From a virus, in the IMG/VR virus record IMGVR_UViG_3300043436_005807, positions 1 through 38,567 of that record: a DNA stretch of 38,567 nucleotides. One strand, given 5' to 3'. Position 1 is the stretch's first letter. Each line of letters starts with the position of its first letter. Made by a program: the position numbers and the translations under genes. The notes under the pieces are model-generated. The model was given only the letters and a program-made list of their open reading frames with translations. It did no database searches and was not told the origin of the DNA. Below are positions 24,448 through 29,528 of this stretch, piece by piece.

Positions 24448-25719
24448 ATGGCACGCGCACGCGGCGCCAATGCCGTTATGGCTGCGGTGTTTGAAACCAG
24501 TTACGGCATCCCACCCGCCAACGGCTTCCGCAGGCTGCCCTTCGTCTCGGCAAATCTTGGCGAAGAGCAATCTCTGATCGAAAGCGATCTCCTGGGCTAT
24601 GGCCGCGATCCGCTGACGCCCGCCTATGACGTGGTGTCGAACGAAAGCGACATTGTGGTTCCCATGGATCATCGCAACATCGGCTTCTGGCTGAAGGCGC
24701 TGCTTGGCAATCCGGTCACGGCCGCGGCAATCGCTGCAAGGGGTACGATCCTGTTCGCGGCGCAGCCCGCGGTCAATGCAACGATCACCATCAATGGCAC
24801 TGCCTTCACCGCCGTTGCCTCCGGTGCGACCGGCAATCAGTTCAACATCGGCGCAAACCTCGCGGCGACGCTGACCAACATCGTGACCGTGCTCACCGCA
24901 AGTGTTGTGCCGGCCGTCACCCAGGCGGCCTATTCCCAGACCGGTGGCAATACGCTGGTAATCACCCGCACCGCGCTGGGCCCCGCTGGCAACAGCTTCA
25001 CGATTGCCGCCTCCACCACGCCTGCGTCGAATGGCACGGCGTCGGGCGCAACGCTGGCCGGTGGCGCAAACAGCCATAGCTTTGTTTCCGGCACGCAGAA
25101 CCTGCCGTCGATGTCGATCGAGATCGGCCTTCCCGATGTGCCATTCTTCGGCATGAATTATGGCGCGCGGGCGAACAGCCTGTCGATCCAGGCGCAAAGA
25201 TCGGGGCTCCTGTCGGCCACTGTCAATGTGATTGCGCAAGGTGAAGCCATGGCCGCAAGCACGGCGGCTGGCGTTCCGTTCAGTCTCGACATCGAGCGCT
25301 TCAGCCAGTTTCAGGGGTCGATCACCCGCAACGGCGCAGTGCTGGGCAACATCGTTTCGGCTGAACTCATGTATTCGAACAATCTCGAAAAGATTGAAGT
25401 GATCAGGCCCGATGGCCGCATCGCCGATACTGATCCGGGCGTCATCAAATGTTCCGGCAGCCTCAATGCGCGGTTTCAGGATACGAGCCTGCTCGATCAG
25501 GCCACCGCCCGCACGCCCTGCGAGATTGCGTTCGGCTGGACGATCGACGCCAGCCGATCATTGCTCTTCACCGCACATCGCGTGTTCCTGCCACGTGGCA
25601 ACCGGCAGATCCAGGGGCCGGGCGGCATTCAGATGCCCTTCGCTTGGTCTGCCGCACTCGATCCGGTCCTGAACAAGACGATGACGGCAGTTCTGACGAA
25701 CGACGTCGCCACTTATTGA
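24448..25719 (+). CDS. Major tail tube protein with an inserted beta-domain
   Basis: A 423-residue tail tube subunit. The N-terminal (ETSYGIPPANGFRRLPFVSA, LLGYGRDPLTPAYDV, MDHRNIGFWLKALLGNPV) and C-terminal parts (FSQFQGSITRNGAVLGNIVS, FLPRGNRQIQGPGGIQMPFA) form the tube family pattern. Between about residues 98 and 208 lies a separate Thr/Ala/Asn-rich repeat-like domain (NATITINGTAFTAVASGATG, GPAGNSFTIAASTTPASNGT) of the type inserted in phage tail tube and sheath proteins, probably surface-exposed. AGGAG precedes the ATG. It polymerises into the tail tube around the tape measure. Confidence 0.92.
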   Translation: MARARGANAVMAAVFETSYGIPPANGFRRLPFVSANLGEEQSLIESDLLGYGRDPLTPAYDVVSNESDIVVPMDHRNIGFWLKALLGNPVTAAAIAARGTILFAAQPAVNATITINGTAFTAVASGATGNQFNIGANLAATLTNIVTVLTASVVPAVTQAAYSQTGGNTLVITRTALGPAGNSFTIAASTTPASNGTASGATLAGGANSHSFVSGTQNLPSMSIEIGLPDVPFFGMNYGARANSLSIQAQRSGLLSATVNVIAQGEAMAASTAAGVPFSLDIERFSQFQGSITRNGAVLGNIVSAELMYSNNLEKIEVIRPDGRIADTDPGVIKCSGSLNARFQDTSLLDQATARTPCEIAFGWTIDASRSLLFTAHRVFLPRGNRQIQGPGGIQMPFAWSAALDPVLNKTMTAVLTNDVATY

Positions 25720-25781: not shown

Positions 25782-26237
25782 TCACTTCGCTCTCAACAGA
25801 TGTGCCTTGAGCCCTTCTGGAAAAAGCTGAGGCCGCCCTGGAAGATCAAGCATCTCGAGTTCATACCACTCTGCGTAACAAGTCGTGCCATGATCTTCCT
25901 TGAAGGCAATGCGCTCCGTCCCGTCAAAAACCCCTCCGGGAAATGCAACGGTGAAGATCGCCAGGATCTCATGCCCGAGGCTGCCTTCATGGGTAAAAAT
26001 ATTCTCCATGAAGACCGGAGGTCTCACGATATCAACAGTGATGCCAAGTTCTTCACGGAACTCCCGTATGAGCGCCGCTTCAGCGGTTTCGCCAAACTCG
26101 ACTGAACCTCCAAGCGGGCGCACACCCTTCACTCGTCCTGAATCATCCAAGACTTCGGCAGCGAGAAGTCGACCCCCACGCCAGTGAAGGCCTAATGCCT
26201 TCAATCGGATAGCAGATGGAGGGCGCCAAGTTGTCAT
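25782..26237 (-). CDS. NUDIX hydrolase (cargo gene)
   Basis: A 151-residue NUDIX hydrolase. The full box G-x5-E-x7-R-E-x-x-E-E-x-G is present in GGSVEFGETAEAALIREF followed by REELGI, with the metal-binding REE glutamates. It would hydrolyse a nucleoside diphosphate linked to another group; the substrate cannot be told. It lies antisense in the tail operon between the tail tube and the tail chaperone, with lower GC content and different codon use from its neighbours by eye, so it looks like a recently gained cargo (moron) gene. The ATG at 26237 lacks a clear ribosome site. Confidence 0.92.
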   Translation of the reverse strand: MTTWRPPSAIRLKALGLHWRGGRLLAAEVLDDSGRVKGVRPLGGSVEFGETAEAALIREFREELGITVDIVRPPVFMENIFTHEGSLGHEILAIFTVAFPGGVFDGTERIAFKEDHGTTCYAEWYELEMLDLPGRPQLFPEGLKAHLLRAK

Positions 26238-26332: not shown

Positions 26333-26689
26333 ATGCTCAAGCTCGAATCCGCGTCAATCGAACCCTTCTGGCTGGACGTGCTGCCGGGTGTGCGTATCCG
26401 GTTCCGGCCTGTCTCCGTGGCCTCGATGCTGATCGCGCGCGCCGCTGCGGGGGAAGCTCTGAAATCCGCTGGTGACGGGGCCGTAATCGAAGCGGGCGCC
26501 GCCTTCACCCGGGCGCTGGCGCAGCAGGGGATTGTGGCCTGGGAAGGCATCGGCGACGCCTCCGGCAAGCCGGTTGATCCTGGCAAGGAGACCATCGATC
26601 AGCTACTTGAGCTATGGCCCGCCTTCGATGCCATTGACCGGCTCTATGTCGGCCCGGCGCTCATGGCGGTGTCCGAAAAAAACGTCTGA
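26333..26689 (+). CDS. Tail assembly chaperone, short form (gpG-like)
   Basis: A 118-residue protein: LKLESASIEPFWLDVLPGVR, FRPVSVASMLIARAAAGEAL, AAFTRALAQQGIVAWEGIGD, then VDPGKETIDQLLELWPAFDA. This fits the small chaperone encoded between tail tube and tape measure, the gpG position of lambda. AGGGGAG lies 6 nt before the ATG at 26333, which is preferred to the in-frame ATG at 26291. The last codons GAA-AAA-AAC-GTC contain the heptamer A_AAA_AAC just before the TGA, so a fraction of ribosomes should shift into the -1 frame. Confidence 0.88.
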   Translation: MLKLESASIEPFWLDVLPGVRIRFRPVSVASMLIARAAAGEALKSAGDGAVIEAGAAFTRALAQQGIVAWEGIGDASGKPVDPGKETIDQLLELWPAFDAIDRLYVGPALMAVSEKNV

Positions 26690-26997
26690 TCGCCCTTGCC
26701 GAATGGCACTTCGATGGGGGTGAAGCTTATTGTGCCGCCTGTCCATCCCGCTGTGCGGCCTGCCCTTATGGCGCGCACGCGCCCGCCACGCCCGAGGGGC
26801 TGCTGGCCTGGGAGGTGATCCGCCGCTCAGCTGGTCAGGTGCGGGCCGTCATGGGCGGTGTCTATGCGCTGGATTTCGGGGCGGTTCTGCTGCTCGCCTC
26901 CGCCATGGGTGCGCTCAATCCGCTGCTGGTCGATGTGCTGCCTGAAATCGAACCCGTGATCGTCAACGCCTATCGCCGGAACGCTGAACCGCCATGA
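26333..26997 (+). CDS. Tail assembly chaperone, long frameshift form (gpGT-like)
   Basis: A -1 shift after the AAC codon (26681-26683) continues from base 26683 as RLIALAEWHFDGGEAYCAAC and on to the TGA at 26995-26997, giving about 221 residues. The T-part has four cysteines in a CxxC-x3-CxxC arrangement (codons 26731-26763), then helices (LLAWEVIRRSAGQVRAVMGG, LLLASAMGALNPLLVDVLPE). In lambda-like phages a G to GT frameshift product in this exact position chaperones the tape measure. The T-part stop overlaps the tape-measure start by ATGA. Because the T-frame lacks a start at its beginning, frameshifting is the simplest explanation; internal initiation at GTG 26815 would lose the cysteine motif. 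Confidence 0.82.
26677..26683 (+). promoter_or_regulatory. Programmed -1 ribosomal frameshift site A_AAA_AAC
   Basis: In the zero frame the codons are GAA-AAA-AAC, so the heptamer A_AAA_AAC is in the correct X_XXY_YYZ phase. The zero-frame stop TGA is at 26687-26689, 4 bases later. The -1 frame is open from 26683 to 26997 and has no ATG, GTG or TTG start until 26815. I did not find an obvious stimulatory stem-loop by eye. Confidence 0.85.
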
Positions 26998-29528
26998 GCG
27001 CCACGTCTGTCTCGATCCGCCTTGGTGTTGAGGGCAAGGCGGAGATCAAGCGGGCCTTTGCGGAAGTGGGCCAGGCAGGCGAAGCCGCCTTCGGCTCCGT
27101 TGAAAAGGCAATGGATCGCTCGGGCGCGGCGGGGGATCGCGAAGTCGCAAGGCTGAAGCGCCTGGCGGAAGCCGCGCGGATGGCAGGCGAGGCGGAGGCC
27201 TCGCAGAAGCGGTTCAATGCCGTTCTCAATGTTGATCGTCCGTTGCCGCGATCGGCCCGTGGGTCCGCCGGTGTCTTCGAGGAAGCCACGCGTGAAGCCG
27301 AAAGCTTCGCGGTGCGGGCGAATGCGCTGCGCGCCGCGATCGATCCCTTGGGCGCGGCGCAAGCGCGGCTCAACCAGGAACTGGCCGAATATGCCGCTCT
27401 TGCCGGGCGCGGCTCCATCACCACTGCTGAACAGGCCGCCGCGCAGGGGCTGGCGCGGCAGCGCTATGATCAGACAGCGCAGGCAATCCGGGGTGTCGGC
27501 GGAGCCAGCCGCCTCACCCGTAACCAGTTACTGACGCTGCAATACACATTCAACGATGTGGTGGCGTCGCTCTCAACCGGCATGTCGCCGATGACCATCC
27601 TGCTGCAACAGGGTGGCCAGGTCACGCAGGCCTTCGGCGGATTGCGCGGAACGTTGGCCGCCTTTGGCTCTTCACTCGGGGTTGTGGGCGGCGCCGTGGC
27701 CGGCGTTGCGGTGGCCGCGGCTGGTTTGACCGCCGCCTGGGTGGCGAATGATGCATCAACCCGGGCAGTGACTGTTGCGCTTGCCGGTTTGGGACGGGCG
27801 TCTGGTACGACGGCGGCACAGCTTGAGCAGGTGGCGCAGGCCTCTGCGGAAGCGGGCGGGATCTCGGTCACCTCCGCCCGCGACATGGAAGTGGCTCTGC
27901 TCCGCGCCGGGCGGATCGGTGCGGGCGAAATCGGCCGCGCCATCGCAATCACCCGCGATTTTGCGGTCACCCTCGGGGTTGATGCCAAGGCGGGGGCCGA
28001 ACAGCTTGCCGCCGCACTTGCCGATCCGGTTCGCGGTGCCGAACAGCTCACCACGCGGCTGGGTTTTCTCGATGATCGCACGCGGCAATATATCCGCACA
28101 CTTTCCGATCAGAACGAGCGGACGGAGGCGCAACGTGTTCTGCTTGATGCCCTTGTGCCCGCGCTTGCTGATGCGGAGGAAGCGACCAACGCCTTCGGCC
28201 GGGCCTGGGCTTATGTGGCGCGGCAGGCGTCCAATGCCTTCGATGCCATCGGCAAGGCTGCTGATCGTGCCATCAACGGCCGCAGCCCGCAGGAAGAACT
28301 TGATCTGCTGCGCTGGCAACGCCAGCAACTGCTGGAAAACGCGCAGGGTGGCGATATGCCACTCATGCTGCCGCAGGTCGAAGAGCGCATCCGCCTGCTG
28401 CAAAACCTGCTCGATGGGCAACAGCGCAAGGCCCAGCTGGTCGCGCAGGATATCGCCGCCAATGAGCTTTCAATCCGGGCAGGTGATATCGCCCGCGATA
28501 TCGCGCCGGGCTTTCGCGAACTGGAACGCCTCAAGGCGCAGCAGGCGGCGCTCAAGTCGGCCCTCGATGATCCGTTGGCACGCGGCAAGCTGGCCGATCT
28601 GTCGCTTGTTGAAGATGCCTATCGCCGCATCACGCAAAGGATCGAGAATTACCGGCCGCCGGTTGAAGCGGCGGCGAAGGCTGAAGAAGCCCAGGCCAAG
28701 GCCGCCCTCGGCACAGCTTCAGCACTTGATCGCAAAGCGGCGGCCAGCGCCGAAGCAGCCCGGCGGCTGCGGGAAGGCCAGATCAATGAGATTGAACTCC
28801 TCACCCGCCGCATCAGCCTTCAAGGCGCGGATACGGCCCAGCGCGATCAACTCCTCGCCGGGCTCCGGACCGAACAGGATCTGCGGCGGCGGGGCATTGA
28901 TCTTGCGGGCGAGGAAGGCCGCGCGATCATCGAGAATGCCGGCCGGATCGAGCGCCTTACGCAGGAGCTGCAAGCCCAGGATGCCGCCTATCGCGCGATT
29001 GAATCGGCCGTGGGCTCAGCGCTTGACCGCTTCGCCGATGTGCTGGCGCAAGGAAAGCTCGATTGGAAATCCTGGGCGGATGCAGGCCGGGCTGCACTTC
29101 AGGACTTGTCCCGCGAAATGATCAAACTCGCCCTGCTCAATCCGCTGAAGAATTTGTTGTTCGGCTCAAATCTGCCGAACCTAAACCAGGGCCTCGGCAT
29201 TTTCTCCCGTCTCTTTCATGATGGCGGCCTCGTGGGCGCGGGCGGTGTGGGCCGCATGGTGCCGGCGTCAACCTTCCTCGGCGCGCCGCGCTTCCATGAA
29301 GGGGCCTTCCTCAAGCCCGATGAAGTTCCCGCGATCCTGCAACGCGGCGAACGCGTGCTGAACCGCAAGGAAGCGCGCGCCTATGAACGGGGGCCCTCCG
29401 GTCGCGGGCAAGGTGCTGTGGTCAACGTCACCATCCAGACGCCGAACCCTTCCGCCTTCGAAGCAAGCCGCGGCCAGATCGCGGCGGGCCTCGCGCGTGC
29501 GGTACAATCCGGCATGCGGGGCCTCTGA
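26994..29528 (+). CDS. Tail tape measure protein
   Basis: An 844-residue protein, the longest helical product of the tail module. It has an N-terminal coiled-coil region (VEGKAEIKRAFAEVGQAGEA), a conserved block RNQLLTLQYTFNDVVASLST followed by GMSPMTILLQQGGQVTQAFG, a hydrophobic segment (SLGVVGGAVAGVAVAAAGLT), a long Ala/Arg/Gln-rich helical centre (500-660), and the usual C-terminus FHDGGLVGAGGVGRMVPAST with VPAILQRGERVLNRKEARAY. It sets tail length and helps DNA ejection. No peptidoglycan hydrolase domain is evident. It starts at an ATG overlapping the chaperone T-frame stop. Confidence 0.95.
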   Translation: MSATSVSIRLGVEGKAEIKRAFAEVGQAGEAAFGSVEKAMDRSGAAGDREVARLKRLAEAARMAGEAEASQKRFNAVLNVDRPLPRSARGSAGVFEEATREAESFAVRANALRAAIDPLGAAQARLNQELAEYAALAGRGSITTAEQAAAQGLARQRYDQTAQAIRGVGGASRLTRNQLLTLQYTFNDVVASLSTGMSPMTILLQQGGQVTQAFGGLRGTLAAFGSSLGVVGGAVAGVAVAAAGLTAAWVANDASTRAVTVALAGLGRASGTTAAQLEQVAQASAEAGGISVTSARDMEVALLRAGRIGAGEIGRAIAITRDFAVTLGVDAKAGAEQLAAALADPVRGAEQLTTRLGFLDDRTRQYIRTLSDQNERTEAQRVLLDALVPALADAEEATNAFGRAWAYVARQASNAFDAIGKAADRAINGRSPQEELDLLRWQRQQLLENAQGGDMPLMLPQVEERIRLLQNLLDGQQRKAQLVAQDIAANELSIRAGDIARDIAPGFRELERLKAQQAALKSALDDPLARGKLADLSLVEDAYRRITQRIENYRPPVEAAAKAEEAQAKAALGTASALDRKAAASAEAARRLREGQINEIELLTRRISLQGADTAQRDQLLAGLRTEQDLRRRGIDLAGEEGRAIIENAGRIERLTQELQAQDAAYRAIESAVGSALDRFADVLAQGKLDWKSWADAGRAALQDLSREMIKLALLNPLKNLLFGSNLPNLNQGLGIFSRLFHDGGLVGAGGVGRMVPASTFLGAPRFHEGAFLKPDEVPAILQRGERVLNRKEARAYERGPSGRGQGAVVNVTIQTPNPSAFEASRGQIAAGLARAVQSGMRGL

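Follow-up and report, generated by a model that had tools for sequence, protein, structure and literature searches.

A probable lambda-type −1 frameshift at a phage tail assembly chaperone gene, with a candidate stem-loop and a four-cysteine T part

Programmed −1 ribosomal frameshifting is a textbook mechanism, and the kind of site described here is already known from the G/GT tail assembly chaperones of phage lambda, where the slip heptamer is G_GGA_AAG. For lambda a G/GT ratio of 30:1 is given, and A_AAA_AAC is less shifty in E. coli than A_AAA_AAG (PMC5009743); measured values of 6% and 7% are given for two tail-chaperone frameshift genes in PMC3711429. For phages of Rhodobacter capsulatus, PMC8601537 names the tail chaperone genes as the usual location of the programmed frameshift.

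We consider a virus record of 38,567 bases, taken whole and referred to below as the window. It encodes an integrase, a large terminase, a portal and a head protease/major head protein, and therefore reads as a temperate tailed phage. The tail region runs in the order tail terminator, tail tube, (Nudix, on the opposite strand), G, T and tape measure, with the following features:

24448..25719, plus strand: tail tube protein gene (Phage_tube_2; PF18906, E 6.7e-47)
25782-26237, minus strand: Nudix hydrolase gene, between tail tube and G
26333..26689, plus strand: G, short tail assembly chaperone, 118 aa (phrog_313, E 1.1e-9, and relatives)
26677..26683, plus strand: −1 slippery heptamer A_AAA_AAC in the G phase, conserved in relatives
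26683..26997, plus strand: T part in the −1 frame (GT fusion of 221 aa; PF24752, DUF7697)
26684..26689, plus strand: 6-nt spacer GTCTGA, including the G stop codon (same distance in 102 of 156 distinct loci)
26690..26723, plus strand: candidate stimulatory stem-loop (arms 26690-26703 and 26710-26723, loop 26704-26709; 13 of 14 pairs in the window)
26731..26763, plus strand: C-x2-C-x3-C-x2-C motif of T (C17 to C27), from alignments and genome loci
26994..29528, plus strand: tape measure gene, its ATG overlapping the T stop (PF06791, E 4.3e-44; phrog_24, E 2.4e-52)

The slip site and its reading frames

Between 26675 and 26689 the G frame reads GAA AAA AAC GTC TGA, which places the heptamer in X_XXY_YYZ phase, and the G stop codon (26687) starts 4 nt past the last base of the heptamer. 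After a slip of one base, reading would continue as CGT CTG ATC GCC (R L I A L A E W H F), in a −1 frame that spans 312 nt or 104 codons (26683-26994) before a TGA at 26995-26997, which overlaps the tape-measure ATG at 26994. This frame opens at 26638, such that the heptamer lies near the end of G and inside a doubly open overlap, and ATG, GTG and TTG are absent from it through codon 44, the earliest being the GTG at 26815. A preliminary description of this DNA had claimed that the heptamer is in phase, that the −1 frame stays open for 312 nt to the tape-measure start and that its first 130 nt hold no initiation codon; the frame coordinates bear out all three, the actual startless length being 132 nt. 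It also expected a standard gene caller to overlook the greater part of T, and the mechanical list of open reading frames, which gives T 60 of its 104 codons, from GTG 26815, agrees with this.

G is homologous to a tail assembly chaperone family (phrog_313) and shares its strand with the tail-tube gene on one side and the tape-measure gene on the other, with the Nudix gene intervening on the opposite strand between tail tube and G; no NCBIfam model matched G or T at E 0.01. The arrangement of lambda-like phages, to which the locus had been likened, is thus supported by gene order, by phrog_313 for G and by DUF7697 for T. The gap from tail tube to G is 0-100 nt in most relatives, and the Nudix gene, for which tblastn found a match in none of the other fetched loci (L001, the single match, is the window itself), looks like an inserted ‘moron’ gene. 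Gaps of around 700-2600 nt are seen in L011/L077, L053/L116, L113, L142 and L166, and these may be other insertions at the same junction. A DNA search of a phage collection in ‘distant’ mode with 1001 bases around the site gave no match, and nor did Rfam on 26500-27000.

The presence of AAAAAAC is, by itself, uninformative, as the window holds one copy over both strands, versus 2.30 +/- 1.49 in dinucleotide shuffles, of which 87 out of 100 contain at least one; it is the place and phase of the copy that are unusual. In-phase X_XXY_YYZ sites with Y = A/T occur at 4 of 5213 codon positions across the ten main open reading frames of the window, which by simple arithmetic puts the chance of finding one within the 52-nt doubly open overlap at about 1%.

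Conservation of the junction among relatives

Unlike the mere presence of the heptamer, its conservation at the exact place settles the reality of the site. A scan of related loci, a counterpart of the chaperone alignment that the preliminary description had proposed as a check, puts a shifty heptamer precisely at the T junction in 156 of 156 distinct loci (viral and genome sets pooled, window included), as AAAAAAC in 144, GGGAAAC in 9 and AAAAAAA in 3. Among the 82 distinct viral loci with both G and T (window included), the −1 arrangement is seen with AAAAAAC in 75, GGGAAAC in 3 and AAAAAAA in 2, and the remaining 2 (L026 and L130) carry an eighth A that fuses G and T in frame; among the genome loci, scanned as the best 80 of 112 relatives, all 80 carry a shifty heptamer at the junction (73, 6 and 1, respectively). 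The viral scan for G covered the best 80 of 115. The G stop lies 6 nt past the slip in 102 of the 156 and 63-186 nt past it in the other 54. Lysine is mostly encoded by AAG outside the slip site (219 AAG to 43 AAA in the sampled G and T stretches), so the AAA at the slip is not a matter of codon bias. In genome contigs, the nearest relatives of T among the best 80 of 112 belong to Methylocystaceae, Beijerinckiaceae, Ancylobacter and other Rhizobiales.

Phage records tell the same story. By tblastn, G was found in 13 of them and T in 14, and in the 13 that share both (those of 11 Rhodobacter phages, a Synechococcus phage and a Nostoc phage) the end of the G match and the start of the T match fall on the same base, which indicates a −1 junction. 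In the four Rhodobacter records examined (RcMeacham, RcKvothe, RcFrancesLouise and RcKemmy) the annotation builds the long product by joining two pieces. The G/GT frameshift reading put forward at the outset accordingly gains from matches that abut at the slip base, from joined annotations and from near-universal conservation of the slip site; we give it a probability of roughly 0.94, with the slipping itself, and its rate, predicted from sequence. Counted against it are the lesser shiftiness of A_AAA_AAC in E. coli, the weakness of the stem in the window (below) and the sharing of one frame by G and T in no fewer than two distinct relatives. A search of the open-licence literature for programmed frameshifting in Rhodobacter tail assembly chaperones matched nothing, which is weak evidence of absence.

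The upstream G frame, checked where a locus had more than 300 nt of upstream sequence, is open in all but 3 of the 156 distinct loci; the exceptions, in each of which the A run is altered, are two A8 fusions and L199, with one A fewer (A6). Variants with A8, in which G and T form one open frame, occur at L026:2991-3003, L153:2491-2503 and L130:2166-2178; L026 and L153 are identical in sequence at this site, and L153, from Rhizobiales bacterium YIM 77505, is counted among the 73 AAAAAAC genome loci. These variants are either sequencing indels or a real loss of the two-product arrangement.

The natural A8 runs of two distinct relatives fuse G and T just as an inserted A would, and the run in the window is an A7; it could thus be proposed that the polymerase slips on this run and adds one A, such that a share of the mRNAs encodes GT in frame. 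We hold this to be improbable, given that A7 is short for polymerase slippage, that 9 of the 156 relatives use GGGAAAC, without a long A run, and that the constant spacing of the stem fits slipping by the ribosome.

Separate initiation of T, with the heptamer incidental, was the case named in the preliminary description as the one that would overturn the frameshift. The GTG at 26815 does yield a 60-codon frame containing the DUF7697 match (T residues 56-101), and 48 of the 156 loci have an ATG, GTG or TTG in the T frame only after Cys17. A start at 26815 would, however, forfeit 11 of the 15 invariant T columns, the Cys motif and the WH pair among them, all lying upstream of codon 45; moreover, 105 of the 156 loci have no such codon in the stretch that starts 20 codons ahead of the junction and ends at codon 44, a start before Cys17 is found in only 3 (the fused L026 included), and the heptamer is kept at the exact junction in all 156. 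Independent initiation, at 26815 or at another internal start, is on this evidence disfavoured and, in our estimation, a shade more improbable than slippage during transcription. Synechococcus phage Sc-Yong805-1 and Nostoc phage Nsp-JY21 (L006 and L007; around 2839-2845) have T annotated as an open reading frame of its own, a point in favour of separate initiation; the same −1 junction is present in both, with the heptamer AAAAAAA, and the separate annotation is probably a missed frameshift.

Least probable is a sequencing error or decayed gene concealing one fused frame, for although homopolymers do attract indel errors, with A8 fusing the frame in L026, L130 and L153 and A6 breaking the arrangement in L199, the two-frame arrangement is present in all but 3 of the 156 distinct loci, which derive from a large number of independent contigs and genomes, and this makes an error in the A run of the window very unlikely, and both the G and T frames are conserved as protein.

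The candidate downstream stem-loop and the T part

Structures that stimulate −1 slipping are expected 5-9 nt after the heptamer, and 6 nt past it a 14-bp stem with a loop UGGCAC/U can be drawn for most relatives. Of 60 distinct viral and phage sequences, 32 form all 14 pairs, 10 form 13 and 18 form 8-12. When compared with synonymous recodings that keep the T protein, these stems have a mean z of -2.13, with 44 of 60 below -1.5 and 16 above, and 58 further sequences from genomes have a mean z of -2.55, with 53 below -1.5; the z-scores come from related sequences, and hence are not independent trials. Across the family 89.6% of stem cells are paired, versus 41-61% when one arm is slid, and the stem is retained, with some base changes, in the Rhodobacter phages.

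Covariation is modest. Compensatory changes affect 2 or 3 of the 14 pairs by two counts, the count of 3 being reached by 240 of 500 shuffles, and RNAalifold recovered 8 pairs from the alignment of the 60 viral and phage stems with the window and 3 from a 68-row alignment (the window, 9 chosen of those 60 and the 58 new genome stems).

In the window itself the stem has 13 pairs, several of them G-U, and an energy of -14.9 kcal/mol (computed on L009, whose sequence there equals that of the window), with a z of -0.99 and 149 of 1000 recodings as stable or better; longer downstream folds of the window gave no signal (z -0.73 at 60 nt, 0.38 at 90 nt). We read the stem-loop, on comparative grounds, as probably a real feature of the family that appears eroded in the subgroup to which the window belongs, where a Gly codon is replaced by one for Asp or Glu; in the family as a whole it is likely to make slipping more frequent. 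A Shine-Dalgarno-like stimulator was also considered (duplex energy of -6.1 in the window; family mean z of -0.79 against synonymous recoding) and is not supported.

The T part opens with a conserved WHF...C-x2-C-x3-C-x2-C region and ends with Pfam DUF7697, matched at residues 56-101 with E 6.2e-13 and 48.9 bits (curated cut-off 27); DUF7697 is here part of the frameshift-encoded T domain. In an alignment of 46 T sequences (the window with 13 viral and 32 genome loci, after thinning by similarity and length) the invariant columns are R1, L5, A6, W8, H9, G13, C20, C24, C27, P28, W43, Q52, R54, D64 and E90, with C17 nearly so, and DUF7697 is matched by all 46; the alignment labelled A1 leaves out L037, L040 and L086. 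Of the genome loci (the best 80 of 112 relatives), 77 keep the exact Cys4 spacing, and the other 3, from Sphingobium/Sphingopyxis, have four cysteines set further apart. Insertions within the motif, which lengthen the loop between the Cys pairs, are seen in L085 and L008, and likewise in the sphingomonad loci L195, L224 and L225.

A metal site at the four cysteines is plausible, with zinc binding suggested by the motif; a zinc-finger Pfam model matched 1 of the 46 members (E 0.0024). Pfam DUF1799 is also matched by 10 of the 46 (best E 0.00038), which suggests that DUF1799 and DUF7697 are related T-type domains. An AlphaFold2 model of T built from the 46-sequence alignment reached a pLDDT of 90.7, and a single-sequence model, with a pLDDT of 58, was discarded. 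Against PDB folds the alignment-based model had no significant match, and a T profile had none among PDB sequences; in BFVD, 4 of the 6 top-ranking viral matches to the model (E 0.014 to 0.57) bear the name tape measure chaperone. Open-licence literature yielded nothing on DUF7697, nor any paper linking lambda gpG/gpT tail assembly with zinc, both weak evidence of absence.

A model for the site, and comparison with known systems

Synthesising the above, we suggest that most ribosomes would terminate G at 26687-26689, and that a minority, with tRNA-Lys and tRNA-Asn on AAA AAC, would slip back by one base and read CGT CTG ATC, so making GT, a fusion of the G part with the T part behind it; the stem-loop 6 nt downstream probably increases this slipping in the family. 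By analogy with lambda, G may bind and coat the tape measure protein, and the T of the rarer GT may bind and recruit tail-tube subunits, such that the ratio set by the slip would control tail assembly. We also speculate, at somewhat short of even odds, that in phages and prophages of Alphaproteobacteria, and in two phages whose recorded hosts are cyanobacteria, a single cis element (A_AAA_AAC or G_GGA_AAC, 6-nt spacer and 14-bp stem) controls a GT chaperone with a frameshift-only Cys4 zinc site followed by DUF7697; in that case tail-tube subunits would be recruited through a metal-bound domain that only the rare form has.

With regard to the T part, the closest known families are PF24752 (DUF7697, a domain of unknown function) and phrog_11212; in the window the Pfam model covers only residues 56-101 and leaves the conserved WHF/Cys4 half outside. 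Likeness in predicted fold to proteins that BFVD names tape measure chaperone, from the enterobacterial phages F20, W011D, Solomon and Shivani, with none at E <=0.001, is taken as a hint only.

The four Rhodobacter capsulatus phages named above are the nearer comparison, having a homologous G (31-35%) and T (41%), the same neighbours, a stem at the same place, the Cys4 motif and a joined CDS in their annotation; they differ in their slip, GGGAAAC, and in a G stop 93 nt past it, against 6 in the window.

With lambda G/GT, as set out in the accessible part of PMC5009743, the locus shares its gene order, a T in the −1 frame that reaches the tape-measure gene and, as predicted here, a −1 shift close to where G ends, with one start serving two products. 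The heptamer here is A_AAA_AAC, by contrast, and T has a Cys4 motif and DUF7697; the two are likened by arrangement. To this known kind of site the present locus and its relatives add the candidate stem-loop, the Cys4/DUF7697 T part, a range across Alphaproteobacteria and rare in-frame fusions.
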